This document shows positions 17,314 to 46,584 of a stretch of 64,000 bases of DNA, piece by piece. The DNA comes from a bacterium. Its GTDB lineage: Bacteria; Myxococcota_A; Bradymonadia; UBA7976; UBA1532. Below the pieces are notes generated by a model. That model was given only the letters and a program-made list of their open reading frames with translations. It did no database searches and was not told the origin of the DNA. The stretch lies in NCBI GenBank assembly GCA_030426085.1, contig JAUHYW010000008.1, positions 124,001 to 188,000 of the forward strand, read 5' to 3'. The position numbers were made by a program, and so were the translations under genes. The stretch's first letter is position 1; each line of letters starts with the position of its first letter.

Positions 17314-28938
<11,625 letters not shown>

Positions 28939-33803: not shown

Positions 33804-34613
33804 GTGAGCGACCGCAGCAAGATCGAATGGACCGACGCAACCTGGAATCCTGTCCGGGGCTGTCAAAAGGTCAGCCCAGGCTGCAAACACTGTTATGCTG
33901 AGACCTTCGCCAACAGATGGGTCGGTGTTCCGGGACACCCGTACGAGCAAGGCTTTACTCCGCGGATCGTGGAGACGAAGCTCTTCGAACCGCTCAGTTG
34001 GGTTCGTCCGCGCAAGATCTTCGTCAACTCGATGAGCGACCTCTTCCAACCCTTCGTTTCTGATTCGTTCATCAGGCAAGTGTTCGAGGTGATGGCGCTG
34101 GCCGACTGGCACGTCTATCAGGTCCTGACCAAGCGAGCCGGTCGAATGCGGTCGGTGGTCAACGCCCTGCCGGCCCGGCTGCGAGGACTTGCTCACGTAT
34201 GGCTCGGGACAAGCGTCGAGGACAGAAAGTACGGGGTGCCTAGGATTCGTGAACTGGCCCAGACCGACGCCAGCATCCGATTTCTGTCGGTCGAGCCGCT
34301 CCTTGAGGACTTGGGGCAACTGAACCTCGAGGGCATTGGCTGGGTCATCGTTGGTGGAGAGAGCGGCCCGGGGGCGAGGCCAATGGAACAAGCCTGGGTC
34401 ACATCAATGCGGGATCAATGCGCATTGCATACTCCTGCGGTCCCGTTCTTCTTCAAGCAGTGGGGTGGGGTTCAGAAGAGCCGATTTGGCCGCCTTCTCG
34501 AAGGTCGTGAGCACAACGGATTCCCGGAGCCTCCTCTCCAAGAGGCTCCCCCGCGCGGAAACCGATTGGCGCGTCGCGAACTTCTGGAGCTTCGGTTGGA
34601 CGCCGTAGCCTGA
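33804..34613 (+). CDS. DUF5131 (phage Gp37/Gp68-like) three-Cys-motif protein
   Basis: The 269-residue product begins SDRSKIEWTDATWNPVRGC and has Cys20, Cys27 and Cys30 in the pattern C-x6-C-x2-C followed by Tyr-Ala-Glu. This is the family PF07505/DUF5131, whose Cys cluster resembles radical-SAM [4Fe-4S] ligands. Other conserved stretches are KIFVNSMSDLF, VYQVLTKRAGRM, HVWLGTSVEDR, LSVEPLLEDLG and VIVGGESGPGARPM, then PFFFKQWGG, typical of the family. The biochemical role is not established. The GTG start has GGAGA six bases upstream. It is paired with TcmP 18 bases downstream. Base composition is clearly lower in GC than the surroundings, a sign of transfer. Confidence 0.92.
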   Translation: MSDRSKIEWTDATWNPVRGCQKVSPGCKHCYAETFANRWVGVPGHPYEQGFTPRIVETKLFEPLSWVRPRKIFVNSMSDLFQPFVSDSFIRQVFEVMALADWHVYQVLTKRAGRMRSVVNALPARLRGLAHVWLGTSVEDRKYGVPRIRELAQTDASIRFLSVEPLLEDLGQLNLEGIGWVIVGGESGPGARPMEQAWVTSMRDQCALHTPAVPFFFKQWGGVQKSRFGRLLEGREHNGFPEPPLQEAPPRGNRLARRELLELRLDAVA

Positions 34614-34631
34614 CCAGGAGGCAGGGGGGCA

Positions 34632-35900
34632 ATGCCCAAGAGCCACTACGAATGGGATCGCTGGTCTCCTCCTGTGATCGGTGAGCATAGCTTGGCAAAG
34701 CACCGTATTCTCCGTGAATACGTCGAACGGTATGTTCAGATTCTGATGGCCGATCCTCGGCGCGATTTACTCAAGCTTACGGTTGTCGATGGCTTTGCTG
34801 GTGGCGGTATCTACCAACTCGCGACGGGTGGCGAGCATCTTGGCTCGCCCCTCATACTCATGGACGCTGTTGAGTCAGCGGTCGCGAAACTCCAGAGGAA
34901 ACGCCTCAAGCGAATCAAGGTCGCAGCCGACTTCGTGTTCATCGAGAAGAAAGCCGATGCCCATGTCTGCTTGGAGTCTGTACTCGAAGAGCAGCGACCC
35001 GGGGTCCTCCAGTCGGACCATGTGAAGTCTGTCCATGGACTCTTCGAAGAAGAGTTGGACGGCGTCATCTCTCACATCAATAGCCGGGGACGAAAGCCAC
35101 GGGCCATCTTCATCTTGGACCAGTATGGCTATAGCGACATCCTCGTCGATACGCTCCGCAGCATATTCTCGCGCATCCCAAACGCCGAAATCTTCATGAC
35201 TCTGGCGGTCGGATGGATTGTGGCCTACATGAATGGCGAGACGAACGCAGGCCACATACTCCGAAAAAGCTTGGGTTTGAGCGCGGCCGAGGTAGAGGAC
35301 GCGTTCCTACGCGAAGACGCCGACGCAGCCAGGAAGCGCCGCACAGTTCAGGCCGTCCTACATCAGACGTTCTCGACCAAGCTCGGAGCCCAATACTATA
35401 CGCCGTTCTTCATACATTCGAGGGAGAGCAACAAGTCTTACTGGTTCCTCCATCTAGCAAACTCCTGGCGCGCCCATGACGAAGTGAAGAAGCTTCACTG
35501 GACCATGGAGAACCACTTCCGCCATTATGGCGACGCAGGGACCATGATGCTGGGCTTCGACCCTCGGAAGGACAATCCGGATCAATTGGACTTGGTGTAT
35601 GCGTTCGACTACTCGGCGAAAGGCCGGACGACAGACTCGTTGTTGGAGGAACTCCCCCGGATGATCACCGACGAGTACACCGACGGAATCCAACTCCGTG
35701 CTCTCGCTCAGTCTCTGGCGAACCAGACCCCAGCGACCGAATCCCTGCTCGGTGAAGTGGTCAACAAGGCATGCCAGGAGCAGCTATTGGTGAAGAAAGG
35801 TAGAGATGGCGAGGTCCGCCGACCGTCGACGACTACGAAGCCGAATGACATCATCTATCCTGCTCGGCAACTCAGGCTCCCGTGGCCCCACTCCAAGTAA
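34632..35900 (+). CDS. tcmP: Three-Cys-motif partner protein TcmP
   Basis: The product has 422 residues, close to the family length, and matches TcmP (family TIGR04474). Motifs are WSPPVIGEHSLAKHRILREY near the N-terminus, VVDGFAGGGIY (residues 51-61, like methyltransferase motif I), FIEKKADAH (motif II-like) and IFILDQYGYSD near residue 160. In most TcmP proteins the last reads LDPYG; here Gln replaces Pro. The fold is thus probably a Rossmann methyltransferase type. TcmP genes regularly pair with DUF5131 genes, as here, with 18 bases between and AGGAGG upstream of the ATG. One sampled 60-base row (34741-34800) has 32 G+C, far below the host genes. Partner and target are unknown; a mobile or defence role is a guess. 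Confidence 0.92.
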   Translation: MPKSHYEWDRWSPPVIGEHSLAKHRILREYVERYVQILMADPRRDLLKLTVVDGFAGGGIYQLATGGEHLGSPLILMDAVESAVAKLQRKRLKRIKVAADFVFIEKKADAHVCLESVLEEQRPGVLQSDHVKSVHGLFEEELDGVISHINSRGRKPRAIFILDQYGYSDILVDTLRSIFSRIPNAEIFMTLAVGWIVAYMNGETNAGHILRKSLGLSAAEVEDAFLREDADAARKRRTVQAVLHQTFSTKLGAQYYTPFFIHSRESNKSYWFLHLANSWRAHDEVKKLHWTMENHFRHYGDAGTMMLGFDPRKDNPDQLDLVYAFDYSAKGRTTDSLLEELPRMITDEYTDGIQLRALAQSLANQTPATESLLGEVVNKACQEQLLVKKGRDGEVRRPSTTTKPNDIIYPARQLRLPWPHSK

Positions 35901-37743: not shown

Positions 37744-38838
37744 TCAGCGGATCGAGGACCACGCCGGATCGCCGTCGATCATCTGCTCGACCCAGCGCCA
37801 CAGCGGCAGGCCGTCGCGGGCCCGGACCCCGTCGAAGCCGAGGATCATGAAGGTGTGCAGCAGCCCGTCCACCAGGAAGTACTGGATGCCGTCGTCCTGA
37901 TCGGCCAGATCGGCGAGGTCGAGCAGGCGGCCCTCGAACTCCCACGGGCTCAGGCTCATGAAGGCCGAGATGATGCCGTCCTGCCGGTGGCTCATCAAGC
38001 CGAAGCGGCCCTGGCGGGTGAGGGTGCGCATGGCGTGCTCGATGATGGCCCCGACCCGCTGATCGCACTCGACGCAGCCCTGGGGCAGCTCGACCCCCCA
38101 CGCCTGCTGCCACTCGACCCACCGCCCGCCGACCGGATCGATGGGCGGGCCGCTGTCGTCGAGCACGTCGACCCGGGCCCAGGGCATGAAGTCCTTGATC
38201 GTCCACCAGTGGAACGCCGCCCCGAAGCCGCCGGCGCTGCTGCCCGAGAGCACGATGTGGTCGACGTCGGCGAAGGTGGGCGCCAGCCGGCGCATGAAGG
38301 CCCGGATGTTGGCCGCCCCGGCGAAGTGCATCTCCCGCTCGATGACGCCCAGCGGGCCCCGCATGCGGGTGACCGCGTCGCCCATGAAGACGTCGCCGGT
38401 GCAGTAGGGCACGAAGATCTGGTGGGCGTCGGCCAGCGGGTTGCGGGCGTCGCGGCGGTCGAACAGCGTCTGGCTGAGGTAGACCTCGCTGAGCATGCCT
38501 TCGAAGTCGCCCTCGTCGAAGCCGTCGAGGTGGAACGCGATGGGCAGGGTGAAGCAGGTCTCGTAGTTCCAGCAGGCGCCGCCGCCTTCGAAGTAGACGA
38601 ACGCCTTGGTCGCCCCGGGGCTGAGGTTGACCCCGATGCCGGTCGCCGATCCGTCGGCGCAGGCGCTGTCGGGGAAGTCGACCCACCGCCAGACGTGGGG
38701 CGCGGCGACGATGGGCTCGCCGACGTCGTCCGGCCAGTCGGGCACCGGCTCGCCTTCGACCGGTTTGCAGGCAGCCAGGGCCAGGGTCAGGCCCAGCGCC
38801 AGCAGCGGGAGGAGGCTGCACGGGGATGTCTTCTGCAT
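37744..38838 (-). CDS. Pectinacetylesterase-family lipoprotein
   Basis: The product has 364 residues. A lipoprotein signal ends in LAAC at about residue 24. The hydrolase core shows FVYFEGGGACWNYETC, then VPYCTGDVFMGD, the nucleophile elbow VLSGSSAGGFG (Ser near 203) and a final His in VDGLLHTFMILG. This is the layout of the pectinacetylesterase/Notum family (PF03283), alpha/beta hydrolases with Ser-Asp-His that remove acyl esters from carbohydrates or, for Notum, a lipid from Wnt. A bacterial lipoprotein member would act outside the inner membrane, substrate unknown. The ATG has GGAGA upstream. It lies 102 bases after the fusion gene on the same strand and might belong to that operon. Confidence 0.85.
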   Translation of the reverse strand: MQKTSPCSLLPLLALGLTLALAACKPVEGEPVPDWPDDVGEPIVAAPHVWRWVDFPDSACADGSATGIGVNLSPGATKAFVYFEGGGACWNYETCFTLPIAFHLDGFDEGDFEGMLSEVYLSQTLFDRRDARNPLADAHQIFVPYCTGDVFMGDAVTRMRGPLGVIEREMHFAGAANIRAFMRRLAPTFADVDHIVLSGSSAGGFGAAFHWWTIKDFMPWARVDVLDDSGPPIDPVGGRWVEWQQAWGVELPQGCVECDQRVGAIIEHAMRTLTRQGRFGLMSHRQDGIISAFMSLSPWEFEGRLLDLADLADQDDGIQYFLVDGLLHTFMILGFDGVRARDGLPLWRWVEQMIDGDPAWSSIR

Positions 38839-38940: not shown

Positions 38941-41900
38941 CTACGGGCCGCCGCGCAGCACGCCCCAGCGGCGGCCGGCGGCGCGCAGGGCCCCGACCGC
39001 CGCCGGGTCGATGGGGCCGATCAGCGCAGATCCCCCGGCGAGGGTCGGGTCGAGCGCCAGCAGCAGGCCCTCGGCGGCGCAGGCGAACAGGGCGCCGGGG
39101 CGGCCGACGCCGGCGAGGCGCACGGTCGGGTCGCGGGGCAGCGCGACCCGGGCGCCGTGGGCGATCCGCACGTTCGGGCGGGCCCGGCGCAGGCCGGGGG
39201 GGATGACCGACGGGGCGCTGACGTCGATCAGCAGCACCGGGCGATCGGCGGCGAGGTGGCCCGGCTCGATGGGCGCGGCGCTGTTGACCGCGGCGATGAT
39301 CACGTCGGCGTCCGCCAGCGCCCGAGGGTCGTCGGCGGTGGAGATCGGGCTCCGATCGAGCGCATCGGCCAGCGCGGCGAGCCGGGGTCCGCTGCCCGGG
39401 CGCCCGACCAGCAGCAGCCGCCCCGGGGCATCGGGCGCGGCCGCGATCCCCCGGGCGATGGCCCGCCCCACGTTGCCCGCGGCGCCGACGATCGCCAGGG
39501 TGATCTGCGCCGGGTCGAAGCCCGCCGCCCGCATCCGCCCGGGCAGCGCGTCGAGCACGGCGGCGGCGGTGAAGGTGTTGCCGGTGACGACCCGCAGCCC
39601 CGCCGGCGGCAGGACCGCCCGGCCGGCGTCGGTCACCACGCTGGTCAGCCCGCCGAGCACCGCCACGGTCGCGCCCCGATCGCGGGCCAGGGCCAGCGCG
39701 GCGTCGACCGCCGCCCGCAGCGGCCCGGCCTCGCCCCGACGGTGGGCCAGGGTGAAGGCGGCCGGCGGGGCGCAGATGGCGAGGCCGTCGAGCAGCACCC
39801 GGCCGTCGAACAGGGCGTGGGCGTAGGCCGGCAGCGGCGCGCCGGGCAGCAGGCGCAGCAGGCGGCCGAGCAGGCGGCGGCGGTCGGCTTCGGGCAGCCG
39901 GGCCAGCCCCGGCGAGATGCGGGTCAGCGCCCGGGCGGCGGATTGCAGCGGGTGCAGGAAGGCCACCCGGGCCGGCGGATCGGGCGCGGTCGGCGGCGCG
40001 GGGGCGGTCACCGGCTCGATCGGGGATCCGATCCACGGGCCGAGCAGCGCCGCCGGGTCGCGGCTGGCGAGGGTCGCGCAGAGGGCGTCGAGGGCGGCGG
40101 CGAGGCGGTCGATCGCCGGCGGGTCGAAGTGGACCGAGGGCTCGATGCGCAGGACGTCGGGGGCGCCGGTCGTCGGCAGCGCCCGGATCCGGTGGCGGTG
40201 CAGCAGCCAGCTCGCGGCGACGAGGCCCCACCCGCGCTCGGCCAGCGCGCGCACGATCGGATCGGCGGCGTCGGGGCGGGCCAGCTCGACCCCGAAGAGC
40301 AGCCCCCGCCCGCGCACCGCCCGGATCACGCCCGGCCAGCGGTCGGCGACCCGCCTCAGCGCGGCGCCCAGCCGGTGGCCGATCGCCGCCGCCCGGCCCG
40401 GCACGTCGTCGGCCTCGACCCGCTCGATCACCGCTTGCGCCACCCGGCAGCCGACGGCGTCGCCGGCGAAGGTCGATCCGCGCGCGTCATCGAAGCCCGG
40501 CTGGAGGTGCCGCCGGTGGATCGCGACCGCCGCGATCTTGGCCAGCCCGCCGCCCAGCGCCTTGCCGAACAGGTAGACCTCGGCCGGCGCCCGCCCGGCG
40601 GCGATCAGGGCCCCGCAGCGGCCGAGCCCGGCCTGGATCTCGTCGATCACCAGCGGGGCGTCGAGCGCGCCGACGGCGTCGAGGGTCGTCTGCGGGATCG
40701 GGCGCACCCCGCCCTCCCCCTGCACCGCCTCGGCGAAGACCGCCAGCAGGTTCGAGGGCCGCCAGTCGGCCTCGACCGGGCCGTCGGGGCCGTCGACCAG
40801 CGTGCGCAGCGGGATGCGCTCGGCGCGCAGCGGCGCCAGATCGGGGGCGTCGCGGGCGACCGCGATCGTGCGGGCGGCGACCAGCGGGGCGATCAGGCCC
40901 CGGCGGTCGGGGTCGCCCAGGGCGCAGCGGGCGGCCAGCGTCATCCCGTGGAAGCCGCCGTCGAGCGTCACGATCACCGGCGGGTGGCGCCGGGCCCGGT
41001 CGCGGTTGTCGGCGATGAGCGCCCGGAGCCGGGCCGGCGCGGTGGCCCCGAAGCGGGCCCGCAGCGCGGCGTGGTGGGCGTCGATCCGCGCCGCCCGGCG
41101 CAAGAGGCAGTGGCGCAGGGCGAGGTCGACCGCCTCGGCCCCGGTGCTGGCCAGCGCGACGGCCCACGCCCGGTCGGTGTGGCGGGCGAGCAGGCGGGAC
41201 AAGGCCCGGCAGAGGTCGGTCTCGGGGGCCCGGGCGGTGGCCTGATCGCAGATGGGCACCCCGTCGAGCGCGGCCCGGGCGACCTCGATCAGCGCCGGGT
41301 CGCGGTGGCCGAGCAGGTTCACCCCGAAGCCGCCGACGACGTCCAGCACCCGGAGTCGGGCGCCGCCCCGCTCGACGGTGAGGTGGTCGCCCGCCCCGTC
41401 GATCACCCGCACGTCGAGCCCCAGCGCGGCCAGGGCCGGGGCCCGCCGGGGCCACGCGGGGTGCGGGTCGCCGTCGGGGTCGACCAGCGGGATGCCGACG
41501 GCGCGCTCGGGGTCGGCGAGGGCGTCGAGCAGCGGGCGATGGTCGGCGGCGATGGCCCGGCGGTCGAGCTTGCCCGGCCCGATGCGCGGCGGGTGACCCG
41601 GGACGAGCCCCACCGCCCACAGGCGGTCGGCGTCGAACGGCGCCTGCGGCGGGTGGGCCTCGGCCCGGGCCCGCAGGGCGTCGGTCAGGGCCGGCCGCAC
41701 GCGGTCCGGGTCGCGGTCGCCGACGAACGCCAGCCCCAGCAGGCCGGGGCAGTCGGGGTGGGTCGCGATCACCAGCCGCTCGACGCCGGGCAGGTCGCGG
41801 AGGCGCGCTTCGACCGGGCCCCGGGCCAGCTCGACGCCCAGGCCGGTCGAGACGCAGTCGTCGGAGCGCCCGGCGTGGCGCAGGCGGCCGGCGTCGTCGA

Positions 41901-43050
41901 CGGTCACCCGGTCGCCGGGGCGGTGCCACGCCGGCCAGTCGGGCGCGCCCAGCGGGCCGGCGGCGGCGAACGGCGAGCGGACCTCGAGCGCGCCGTCGAC
42001 GACCCGCCACTCGACGCCGGGCAGCGGGCGCCCGAGGGTCTCCAGCGGGGCGTCGGGGTCGAGCAGGGTCGTGCTGATCTGCTGGGTCTCGGTGGTCCCG
42101 AAGGCGTTGGCCAGCCGGGTGTGCGGCAGGCGCGCGGCGAGCCGGGGGTCGAACGGGGCCCCGCTCGACACGGCGATCGTCAGGCCCCGGACCACCCGCC
42201 GCAAGGCCGGCTCGGCGTCGGTCGCCGCCGGCAGCAGGCTCAGCAGCGCCGGGCCGCCGGTGATGTGCCGCGGGGGGTGGGCCAGCAGCAGCCGGGCGGC
42301 CTCGTCGGGGGCCGCGGCGGGCCACTCGGGCTGCACGAAGACGATCGGCGCCCGGGCCCACAGGGCGAGCATCGCCGCCCGCACGCCCATCGAGTGGCAC
42401 AGGCCGGGGCACAGCGTGGGGCCGCCGAGCCGGTCGGGGGTGAGCAGGCCGGCCGCAGCGAAGGCGGCGCCGCAGGTCATCCAGCTCGACTCGGGGTAGC
42501 GCAGGGCCCGGGGCGGCCCGGTGGTGCCGCTGCTGGTGAGGCACAGGATGTCGGCCAGGGGCGCCCGGGGGGTGGCATCCGGGGTGTCATCCATCACACC
42601 GGTCGGGGTCCAGCCGAGCGACGCCAGGCATGGCATCAGGTCGAGGTATGGGATCCCGCGGCGCGCGGCGAGCCCGGCGAGGCGGCGGTCGGTCTGCTGG
42701 CCGATGGCTTCGAATCCGGGCACCCGGCGGCGGTCGCCGATGATCGCGGCCGGCCGCCAGTGTTCGAGGTGGCCCGGGGTGTGATCGCCGATCGAGGCCG
42801 GCAGGTACACCCGGATCCCGGCGGCGAGCAGCGCGAAGAGCAGCCCGGCCAGCGGCGCCTCGGGGCTGGCCGGGGTCCGGGCCAGCATCACCGCCGCGCC
42901 GGGCGGGAAGCGGTCGGGGATCCGGGCGGTGATCCGGCGCAGGTCGGCCAGGGCGAGCCCGTGGTCCCCGTCGCCGTCGGCCCCGACGAGCAGCGGGCGC
43001 CCGGGGTCGGGCCCGGCGAGCAGGTCGGCGAAGGTGCGGGGCGCGCTCAT
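38941..43050 (-). CDS. Adenylation-aminotransferase-reductase fusion enzyme (putative fatty-amine synthase)
   Basis: The product has 1,369 residues in three parts. Residues 1 to about 530 form an acyl-adenylating (AMP-binding) domain: LTSSGTTGPPRALRY near 168, NAFGTTE near 313, HRPGDRV near 375, GRSDD, and the catalytic-Lys motif GPGKLDRR near 490. Residues about 540-1000 are a class III PLP aminotransferase: GFHGMTLAARCA, VIDEIQAGLGRCG, and FGKALGGG with the PLP Lys near 828. Residues about 1010-1369 resemble long-chain acyl-ACP reductases: VTGNTFTAAAVLDAL, the Rossmann loop VGAAGNVGRAI near 1186, and a final LFACAAEGLLLAL. No carrier-protein domain is visible. Expected chemistry: acid to acyl-adenylate or thioester, to aldehyde, to primary amine. 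The ATG overlaps the desaturase stop (ATGA). The domain calls are firm for the first two, fair for the third; the product is inference. Confidence 0.85.
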   Translation of the reverse strand: MSAPRTFADLLAGPDPGRPLLVGADGDGDHGLALADLRRITARIPDRFPPGAAVMLARTPASPEAPLAGLLFALLAAGIRVYLPASIGDHTPGHLEHWRPAAIIGDRRRVPGFEAIGQQTDRRLAGLAARRGIPYLDLMPCLASLGWTPTGVMDDTPDATPRAPLADILCLTSSGTTGPPRALRYPESSWMTCGAAFAAAGLLTPDRLGGPTLCPGLCHSMGVRAAMLALWARAPIVFVQPEWPAAAPDEAARLLLAHPPRHITGGPALLSLLPAATDAEPALRRVVRGLTIAVSSGAPFDPRLAARLPHTRLANAFGTTETQQISTTLLDPDAPLETLGRPLPGVEWRVVDGALEVRSPFAAAGPLGAPDWPAWHRPGDRVTVDDAGRLRHAGRSDDCVSTGLGVELARGPVEARLRDLPGVERLVIATHPDCPGLLGLAFVGDRDPDRVRPALTDALRARAEAHPPQAPFDADRLWAVGLVPGHPPRIGPGKLDRRAIAADHRPLLDALADPERAVGIPLVDPDGDPHPAWPRRAPALAALGLDVRVIDGAGDHLTVERGGARLRVLDVVGGFGVNLLGHRDPALIEVARAALDGVPICDQATARAPETDLCRALSRLLARHTDRAWAVALASTGAEAVDLALRHCLLRRAARIDAHHAALRARFGATAPARLRALIADNRDRARRHPPVIVTLDGGFHGMTLAARCALGDPDRRGLIAPLVAARTIAVARDAPDLAPLRAERIPLRTLVDGPDGPVEADWRPSNLLAVFAEAVQGEGGVRPIPQTTLDAVGALDAPLVIDEIQAGLGRCGALIAAGRAPAEVYLFGKALGGGLAKIAAVAIHRRHLQPGFDDARGSTFAGDAVGCRVAQAVIERVEADDVPGRAAAIGHRLGAALRRVADRWPGVIRAVRGRGLLFGVELARPDAADPIVRALAERGWGLVAASWLLHRHRIRALPTTGAPDVLRIEPSVHFDPPAIDRLAAALDALCATLASRDPAALLGPWIGSPIEPVTAPAPPTAPDPPARVAFLHPLQSAARALTRISPGLARLPEADRRRLLGRLLRLLPGAPLPAYAHALFDGRVLLDGLAICAPPAAFTLAHRRGEAGPLRAAVDAALALARDRGATVAVLGGLTSVVTDAGRAVLPPAGLRVVTGNTFTAAAVLDALPGRMRAAGFDPAQITLAIVGAAGNVGRAIARGIAAAPDAPGRLLLVGRPGSGPRLAALADALDRSPISTADDPRALADADVIIAAVNSAAPIEPGHLAADRPVLLIDVSAPSVIPPGLRRARPNVRIAHGARVALPRDPTVRLAGVGRPGALFACAAEGLLLALDPTLAGGSALIGPIDPAAVGALRAAGRRWGVLRGGP

Positions 43051-44013: not shown

Positions 44014-46584
44014 TCACCCCGGAGGGCGCAGGGTGAGGGTCTGGCGGGTCGGGCCCGGCCGGTACGGCTGGCGATCGCCCTCGGCCCAGGCCCGGTATTG
44101 ATCGAGGAAGTGCGGCGACAACGGGTGCCCGCTCTGGCCGCCGGGCAGCAGCAGGTAGCCCTGATCCTCCTTGCCCGGCGAGACGGCCAGCCGCTCGGAG
44201 GCGCCCGCGCCGCTGCTCTGCACCCGGGGCATGTGGCTGTCGCCGGGCAGCGGGTCGCGGGGGGCGCCGAGCGCGTCGCCGAAGACCGGCACCGCCCCCG
44301 CCATCGGGTGGCGCACCGCCATCCGGTTGGCCTCGCCCCAGGTCCGCTGATCGAGCGCGGCGACCGGATCGGGCGCGCCCTCGGTCAACCGGGCCAGCGT
44401 CTCGTCGATCAGCGCGAGCTGCCAGTCGGCCCAGCTCGGATGCTTCGGGTGCAGCAGGTGGGCCGGCTCGGTGGTCACCATCTCCCACAGCGGGCCCTCG
44501 GCGCCGGGCTCGGCGTAGGCGAAGTCGGGGTGCAGCGCGACGGCGGGCGCGGTCAGGGCGCCGAAGACGCCCCGCAGGATGGCCAGCCGCAGGTCGTGCA
44601 CCAGCCGATAGCCCACCGAGTCGACCGAGGCCCGCCCGGTCCAGCCGGTGTCGAGGTGGTGCTTCGCCCGGGTCCGCAGCGGGGTCGGCTCGGCCTCGGC
44701 CAGCAGCTCCTGGAGGTGCACCCGCCACGGGGTCAGGAAGAGCGCCCGGTCGTCGAGCTGGATGGCGAGCATGTCGTCTTCGGTGAGCTTGCGCTCGGCG
44801 GCGCGGGCCCGCAGGCCGTCCCGGATCTGCTTCTGGCGGGGGCCGAGCGCGTAGCGGGTCTCCCCGAGCAGGGCGTAGGCCTCGCCGCCGACCATGCGCC
44901 CGTTGCCGTTCCACAGCAGGCCGCCGGGGGGGTCGACGATCCGGGGGTAGCGCTCGGCCGGCAGGCGGCCCTTCCACCCGACGTCGCCGGCGGCCCACCC
45001 GCGCGGGATCCGACCGTCGAAGCCGGCCCACAGCGGGGGCTCGGGGGGCTCGGCGGCTGCGGGCGCGGGCTCATCCGGCGCGGCGGGCTCGGCGCCCTCG
45101 GGCGCGGCGGGCGCCTCCGGCGCAGGGGGCTCTTCCGGCGCAGGGGGCTCTTCCGGCGCCGGGCCGAAGCGCTCCGGCACGTAGCCGAAGATGGTCCACC
45201 CGATGCGTCCGGTGTGATCGCCGACGACGAAGTTCTGCGGCGGGGTGCCCCCCCGATGGGCGACCGCCAGCGCCGCGTCGAGGTCCTCGGTCGCCTCGAG
45301 GTCGCGCACGGCGAGGTTGAGCGCCTCGGGGTCGTGCCCCACCCAGCGGATGGCCGTCGGCCGGCCGTGCTCGGCGTCGACCACCGGCCCCCAGATCGTC
45401 CACCGGTGCGCCATCGTCACCGGGTCGCCCCCGGCCACCTCGATGGTCTCGGTGTGGGTGACGAACGGCCGGGGCCCCTCGGGGGTGCGGTAGGTGTCGC
45501 CCTCGACCTCGAGCGGGATGGCGTCGACGCTGTCGATCTGGCTGTTGGTGAACGCCCAGGCGATGCGCCCGTTGCTGCCGACCACGATGACCGGACCGCC
45601 GGGCAGGCTCACCCCCTCGACCCGGCGGGTCGCCTCGCCGTCGCTCCACTCCAGCGCGGCCCGGTACCAGATGATCGGCACCCGCAGCGACAGGTGCATG
45701 TCGTTGGCCACCAGCGCGCCGCCGTGCCGGCTGCGGGCCCCGGCGACGGCCCACGAGTTGCTGCCCATCATCACCTGCCCCGCCCGCACCGGGGCCCCGC
45801 TCTGCTCGCCCCGGCGCAGGGCCTCCCACTGGGGCATCGTGCGCAGATCGGCCACCTCGGGGCCGGGCATCGGCACCACCGGCAGCGCCCCATCGTCCAC
45901 CGGCGCGTCCCACCGGGGGTTGCTGCGGGGCATGAGCCACTCGGCCAGCTCGCGCGGCAGCGCCTCGCGCATCACCGCCCGCCGCCGGTCGTAGCTCGCC
46001 GTCTCGTCCTGCAAGTCGTAGAACATCGCCAGGATGACCAGCGCGGTGTCCACCGGGGCCCACGGCCGGGGGTCGACCCGCAGGAGCTGATACTCGAACG
46101 GGTCGGCGTCGAGGGCGTCGAGCCCGGCGTTGACCCCCGCCGCGTAGCGCTCGACGAGGGCCCGGTTCTCGGCGTCGAACCCTTTCAGCGCCTGCTCGGC
46201 GACATGCCGGCTGCGGTGGATGCGGCGCGACGTGTCGAAGTCCACCGCCCGCTCGCCAAACAGCGCCGACAGCTCACCGGCCGAGGCCCGGCGCATGAGA
46301 TCCATCTGGAAGAAGCGCTCCTGCCCGTGGGCGAAGCCCATCGCGAAGGCGATGTCGGCCCGGTCGGCGGCGCGGAAGGTGGGCACGCCGCGGGCGTCGC
46401 GCTCGATGGTCACCGGCCCCGACAGCCCCTCGACGGTGAGCTCGCCGGTGGTGGTCGGCAGGCTGCCGCGCAGCACCATCGTGAGCGCCGCGCCGACGAG
46501 CACCAGCAGGATCGCCAGCCCGCCGAAGATCCATGCCAGGATCCGGGGCCATCGCCGCCGCTTGGGGGCCGCCTCGTCGCTCAT
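44014..46584 (-). CDS. Penicillin acylase-family Ntn hydrolase
   Basis: The 856-residue product has one N-terminal membrane helix (about residues 15-40, WPRILAWIFGGLAILLVLVG), an alpha-chain region and the self-cleavage and nucleophile site MMGSNSWAVAG (Ser275, which becomes the beta-chain N-terminus). Later stretches include NDMHLSLRVPIIWYRA, GVSLPGGPVIVVGSNGRIAW and HRWTIWGPVV, typical of PF01804. These enzymes cut amide bonds of acyl-amino compounds, including penicillins, acyl-homoserine lactones and N-acyl peptides. A Pro/Glu/Ala-rich insertion near residues 470-515 (repeats of PAPEEP) is a low-complexity loop not usual in the family. GGAG precedes the ATG at 46584. It is first in the operon with the desaturase and fusion enzyme, and a tie to amine or amide lipids is plausible. 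Confidence 0.88.
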   Translation of the reverse strand: MSDEAAPKRRRWPRILAWIFGGLAILLVLVGAALTMVLRGSLPTTTGELTVEGLSGPVTIERDARGVPTFRAADRADIAFAMGFAHGQERFFQMDLMRRASAGELSALFGERAVDFDTSRRIHRSRHVAEQALKGFDAENRALVERYAAGVNAGLDALDADPFEYQLLRVDPRPWAPVDTALVILAMFYDLQDETASYDRRRAVMREALPRELAEWLMPRSNPRWDAPVDDGALPVVPMPGPEVADLRTMPQWEALRRGEQSGAPVRAGQVMMGSNSWAVAGARSRHGGALVANDMHLSLRVPIIWYRAALEWSDGEATRRVEGVSLPGGPVIVVGSNGRIAWAFTNSQIDSVDAIPLEVEGDTYRTPEGPRPFVTHTETIEVAGGDPVTMAHRWTIWGPVVDAEHGRPTAIRWVGHDPEALNLAVRDLEATEDLDAALAVAHRGGTPPQNFVVGDHTGRIGWTIFGYVPERFGPAPEEPPAPEEPPAPEAPAAPEGAEPAAPDEPAPAAAEPPEPPLWAGFDGRIPRGWAAGDVGWKGRLPAERYPRIVDPPGGLLWNGNGRMVGGEAYALLGETRYALGPRQKQIRDGLRARAAERKLTEDDMLAIQLDDRALFLTPWRVHLQELLAEAEPTPLRTRAKHHLDTGWTGRASVDSVGYRLVHDLRLAILRGVFGALTAPAVALHPDFAYAEPGAEGPLWEMVTTEPAHLLHPKHPSWADWQLALIDETLARLTEGAPDPVAALDQRTWGEANRMAVRHPMAGAVPVFGDALGAPRDPLPGDSHMPRVQSSGAGASERLAVSPGKEDQGYLLLPGGQSGHPLSPHFLDQYRAWAEGDRQPYRPGPTRQTLTLRPPG

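Follow-up and report, generated by a model that had tools for sequence, protein, structure and literature searches.

A candidate carrier-less fatty-acid-to-amine synthase in a single chain, encoded next to a membrane desaturase in Myxococcota and Planctomycetota

The window, meaning the whole 64,000-nucleotide stretch of DNA analysed, contains a gene for a protein (Table 1) composed of an adenylation domain (A), a class III aminotransferase domain (AT) and a reductase domain of the acyl-ACP reductase (AAR) type (R), in that order; both the domain content and the order proposed for the 1,369-residue chain by a sequence-only reading of this DNA hold up in Pfam, in profile matches to AAR and PigE, and in motifs. 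Translation gives one uninterrupted frame from ATG to stop with 0 internal stops, and a single reading frame is retained across genomes of 50-75% GC, which excludes a GC-bias artefact and also the frameshift joining separate genes that the sequence-only reading had considered. Directly upstream is the gene of a membrane fatty-acid desaturase with three histidine boxes (HACAHD, HRAHH and HKEHH), and the stop codon of this gene shares bases with the ATG of the enzyme gene (ATGA). The sequence-only reading recognized the enzyme, but missed this overlapping neighbour and the homologous family elsewhere. The flanking penicillin-acylase and pectinacetylesterase-family genes are syntenic in a congener, G001 (67% and 78% identity, respectively), and are kept within the genus only; they are left out of the functional argument, and their role in the unit is uncertain. 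No pyrrole-type gene was evident among the called window genes that were scanned, a subset of the genes.

Table 1. Features of the tri-domain enzyme locus (positions in the window).
Feature	Position	Strand	Basis or remark
Tri-domain enzyme (A-AT-R), 1,369 aa	38941..43050	-	ATG start, stop included; translation, Pfam, homologues
Adenylation (ANL) domain, residues 1-515	41506..43050	-	Pfam PF00501, profile, AF2/Foldseek, motifs
Class III aminotransferase domain, residues 516-1015	40006..41505	-	PF00202, CrmG 5dds, AF2/Foldseek, motifs
AAR-type reductase domain, residues 1030-1369	38944..39963	-	Profile vs 6jzu/PigE, TIGR04058, motifs
A10 Lys494, adenylation domain	41569-41571	-	Motif alignment
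Predicted PLP lysine Lys830	40561-40563	-	Motif alignment
Predicted catalytic Cys1324, AAR-type	39079-39081	-	Motif alignment
Membrane fatty-acid desaturase, 318 aa	43047..44003	-	PF00487, E 6e-28
Ntn hydrolase of the penicillin-acylase family, immediately upstream of desaturase	44014..46584	-	PF01804, E 4e-137
Pectinacetylesterase-family protein, downstream of enzyme	37744..38838	-	PF03283, E 2e-19

The adenylation domain is recognized by Pfam above the cut-off (AMP-binding, PF00501, residues 159-355, E = 6e-16), matches ANL enzymes of the PDB as a profile (E = 2e-29), and has an AF2 model (pLDDT 85) that retrieves the ANL fold in Foldseek. Its motifs include A3 (TSSGTTG), A5 (NAFGTTE) and A10 (GPGKLD), and the tri-domain chains in general possess the A3 P-loop, A5, the A7 aspartate, the A10 lysine and the fold expected of ANL enzymes, the A10 lysine being absent from L027 alone in the motif comparison. 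The A4 region reads HSMG or HTMG in tri-domain chains, compared with HDMG in a fatty-acyl-ligase-like domain of a Sphingomonas homologue (L031); it lacks what we take to be the aspartate of alpha-amino-acid A domains, and specificity for alpha-amino acids was rejected on this comparison, which is drawn from general knowledge. The domain is divergent, and its substrate is not firmly predicted by sequence. The aminotransferase domain also scores above the Pfam cut-off (Aminotran_3, PF00202, residues 567-940, E = 4e-42) and matches CrmG (5dds, E = 4e-46); its AF2 model (pLDDT 82) retrieves the CrmG/PigE-type aminotransferase fold in Foldseek.

The C-terminus gives only a weak Rossmann signal in Pfam. 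A single-sequence search with the C-terminal third finds AAR (6jzu, E = 1e-10), and a seven-member reductase profile matches both cyanobacterial AAR (6jzu) with E = 4e-28 and the reductase at the N-terminus of PigE (4ppm, residues 23-337) with E = 8e-27, bearing out the AAR/PigE-type kinship proposed earlier for the last domain. The catalytic cysteine of AAR aligns with a conserved FACAAE motif, and GNTFT and Rossmann (VGAAGNVG, from residue 1188) motifs are present. The score against the NCBIfam model for cyanobacterial AAR (TIGR04058, AcACP_reductase, E = 3.5e-17) is 62.7 bits compared with an equivalog cut-off of 449.7, by which the predicted reductase is a homologue of AAR and not a cyanobacterial AAR. 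The reductase part is missing from the best 50 structural matches listed by Foldseek for the AF2 model, and the AAR assignment rests on the profile match.

In agreement with the sequence-only reading, a search of the window protein for a PP-binding carrier domain (PF00550; Pfam, E <= 0.001) found none. Five homologous chains with the three domains likewise gave no match (E <= 0.05), whereas the same scan finds a carrier in the Sphingomonas homologue, where it lies between A and AT. A free-standing carrier gene next door was rejected because PF00550 matches nothing on the window's contig. The genome has 18 PF00550 matches outside this contig, and so a carrier acting in trans is possible.

Homologues were sought in 57 genomes of the class, in a 141-genome sample in place of the whole phylum, and with the conserved C-terminal alignment; a full-length alignment gave no usable pattern, a single-protein scan of genome contigs returned 0 matches, and a search of plasmids returned aminotransferase matches only. 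Eight further genomes have the A-AT-R layout, most of the homologues being from metagenome-assembled genomes: the congener G001 (67% identity), another member of the family (G006), two genomes from a different family (G043 and G049), two Deltaproteobacteria MAGs (L027 and L028) and two Planctomycetes (L025 and L029, 50-53% GC). The G043 and L029 chains are cut by contig ends and that of G049 is split over two contigs, but every tri-domain chain complete at its N-terminus has the ANL domain there. Since the same layout recurs in this way, the window gene is not an assembly artefact or a local oddity. A tree built on the AT-R part unites the tri-domain sequences in a single clade (95/98) and leaves the Sphingomonas chain and two AT-R didomains from Myxococcota outside it; the branching order of the subgroups is unresolved. 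The fusion thus probably arose once, and either descent or transfer would account for its presence in two phyla. One Myxococcota genome encodes an AT-R didomain and two PEP-utilising/PPDK-like proteins consecutively, with no adenylation domain nearby (L040:2461-11394), and Myxococcota proteins of 717-728 aa (L037:523-2673 and L039:347-2530) combine a C-terminal AAR-like reductase with an uncharacterised N-terminal half.

The desaturase gene is directly upstream of the enzyme gene in six of the nine loci (the window, G006, G043, G049, L025 and L029), the two genes overlapping or abutting in most of these, and a linked desaturase is missing from the other three; G001 retains its desaturase on a different contig. 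Homologues of the desaturase (E <= 1e-15) and the tri-domain enzyme are present in the identical five of the 57 genomes of the class, a coincidence with a naive chance of 2e-7 that ignores relatedness, two of the five sharing a genus. A CopD-like membrane protein of 155 aa is encoded near the desaturase (L021:3392-3856, L020:6574-7035 and L047:5157-5627). It occurs in G043, in G049 and near the G001 desaturase, that is, in three of the five cassette genomes and nowhere else in the class sample, and is a possible electron-transfer partner. In the two Deltaproteobacteria MAGs, the 3' end of the tri-domain gene is overlapped by a DUF3419 (BtaA-like) gene (L027:8451-9554) and by a PEMT/ICMT-like methyltransferase gene (L028:10599-11171), respectively; these may modify the predicted amine product. 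A homologue of betaine-lipid synthase carries the DUF3419 annotation (PMC10685587).

The closest described natural route found is the two-protein, carrier-bound cascade of tambjamine synthesis. Its fatty acid is activated by TamA, an adenylation-ACP protein, and not by TamT as the sequence-only reading had it, TamT being a predicted FAD-dependent dehydrogenase (PMC5939613). TamH was rightly identified as the amine maker with both activities, but the true order in its chain is aminotransferase then reductase (PMC9594044), the order of the window protein, which has in common with TamH (PtTamH of tambjamine YP1) the class III aminotransferase followed by an AAR-like reductase, the catalytic cysteine and, by prediction, the relay from aldehyde to amine, a likeness drawn from the published description of TamH. 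TamH is a didomain with no further catalytic domain, supplied with acyl chains by the ACP of a separate TamA (PMC9594044), whereas the window protein has an adenylation domain fused in front; it would share fatty-acid activation for an amine tail with TamA, which is separate and has a carrier. The desaturase of the window occupies the place of TamT, but belongs to a different enzyme class. TamA and TamH together turn the C12 acid into the C12 amine in vitro, and PtTamH alone does not reduce C12-CoA but requires the carrier of TamA (PMC9594044); a carrier-less chain must therefore differ in this respect or borrow a carrier. PigE is a related pair, as had been noted, with profile matches to both its AAR-like reductase and its class III aminotransferase, but its domains are in the opposite order, it has no adenylation domain, and its product is different; in cell lysate it converts a thioester to a reduced, transaminated product (PMC8341465).

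All of the activities are also united in one chain by the Sphingomonas protein (L031:6157-10770), which is distant (branch 2.1) and contains a carrier, unlike the window protein; with an acyl-CoA dehydrogenase gene next after it, it resembles a TamA-TamH fusion that has retained the carrier, beside a TamT-like neighbour. Carboxylic acid reductases (A-PCP-R) likewise take an acid to an aldehyde in one chain by adenylation and then reduction, but contain a carrier and end in an SDR-type reductase, whereas the window protein has an AAR-type reductase, no carrier and an added aminotransferase. LuxC/LuxE, which belong to unrelated protein families and have no aminotransferase, are a precedent for transfer from acyl-AMP to an enzyme without a carrier. 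This fatty acid reductase (outlined in PMC3260636) converts acid to aldehyde by way of acyl-AMP and enzyme-bound acyl. No description of an A-AT-R chain was found in the open-access literature, subscription papers lying mostly outside the coverage.

The window protein is probably a carrier-less, single-chain synthase of primary amines from fatty acids that works with the desaturase. We infer its substrate, its steps and their direction as follows: the adenylation domain would convert a free fatty acid and ATP to an acyl-adenylate; the acyl group would reach Cys1324 via CoA, via an ACP acting in trans, or directly, with roughly even odds among these routes; the reductase, with NAD(P)H, would free the aldehyde; the aminotransferase, with PLP and an amino donor such as L-glutamate, would make and release the primary fatty amine; and the membrane desaturase, presumed to act on the same chain, would add a double bond before or after. 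This reading draws on the domain assignments and catalytic residues (Lys494, Lys830 and Cys1324), on AF2 models matching ANL, CrmG and PigE folds, on the chemistry of TamA plus TamH and of PigE lysate, on the separation of the tri-domain clade from AT-R didomains, on the resemblance of A4 to that of the L031 fatty-acyl-ligase-like domain, and on the linkage and identical distribution of the desaturase. By analogy, the protein most likely works like TamA and TamH with the carrier omitted. The one-protein route from fatty acid to fatty amine suggested earlier is supported, along with the domains, their order and the kinship to AAR, TamH and PigE, the amine product itself being a prediction. Counting against it are the dependence of PtTamH on the TamA carrier, the divergence of the A domain, the missing A10 lysine of L027, and the three loci without a linked desaturase.

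The adenylation domain offers starting points for two other explanations. Its best Foldseek match, the stand-alone amide bond synthetase McbA, and the existence of AT-R didomains without an A domain nearby would suit an enzyme in which AT-R aminates acyl-ACP or acyl-CoA of primary metabolism, while the A domain activates a second acid for an amide with that amine; this is unlikely, as ANL enzymes all score almost equally (TM 0.57-0.73), which makes the McbA match unspecific, and the A domain of the Sphingomonas homologue precedes the carrier and AT-R as in TamA plus TamH. Somewhat less improbable is the same cascade acting on a non-fatty (aryl or short branched) acid, with the desaturase-like protein hydroxylating or desaturating some other compound: NRPS, aryl and short-acyl ligases are about equally similar to the A domain, and the NCBIfam model closest to the L025 desaturase is the arginine hydroxylase GntB. 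That match, however, is far below the cut-off and is accompanied by matches to fatty-acid desaturase models, and the AAR kin of the reductase act on long-chain acyl thioesters. It is very unlikely that the main product in vivo is an aldehyde or alcohol, or that the enzyme serves amine breakdown; transaminases are in principle reversible, but activation at the expense of ATP and the reductive step both speak for biosynthesis, the direction in which the pairing of AAR and aminotransferase operates in TamH and PigE.

With the amine synthase preferred, the recurrence of its layout among further Myxococcota and among Planctomycetes, in most cases next to a desaturase, suggests that the two genes form a genuine and hitherto undescribed route to long-chain amines with unsaturated tails. 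A more specific version is tentative and rather doubtful: the acyl-adenylate would pass straight onto the AAR cysteine without CoA or ACP, and the enzyme and desaturase would make unsaturated long-chain amines in Myxococcota and Planctomycetota, possibly as parts of undescribed aminolipids, considering the BtaA-like and phospholipid-methyltransferase-like genes that overlap the enzyme gene in L027 and L028. If the single chain does operate without a carrier, it raises a well-defined question about how the acyl group is transferred. Direct conversion of fatty acids to amines is wanted in biocatalysis, and a natural carrier-less version in one chain would simplify a cascade of the TamA/TamH type. 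The cassette predicts long-chain, probably unsaturated, amines in its host bacteria, from which, to our knowledge, none have been described, and offers lipid chemists a genetic marker in the search for them.

Elsewhere in the window, a TcmP protein (three-Cys-motif partner, TIGR04474) adjoins a radical-SAM-mobile-pair-A-like protein (33804-35900, forward strand), the two matching PADLOC candidate systems PDC-M30/M41, and the reverse strand encodes a very large protein (17317-28917; predicted length about 3,867 aa) with a secreted or lipoprotein-like start.
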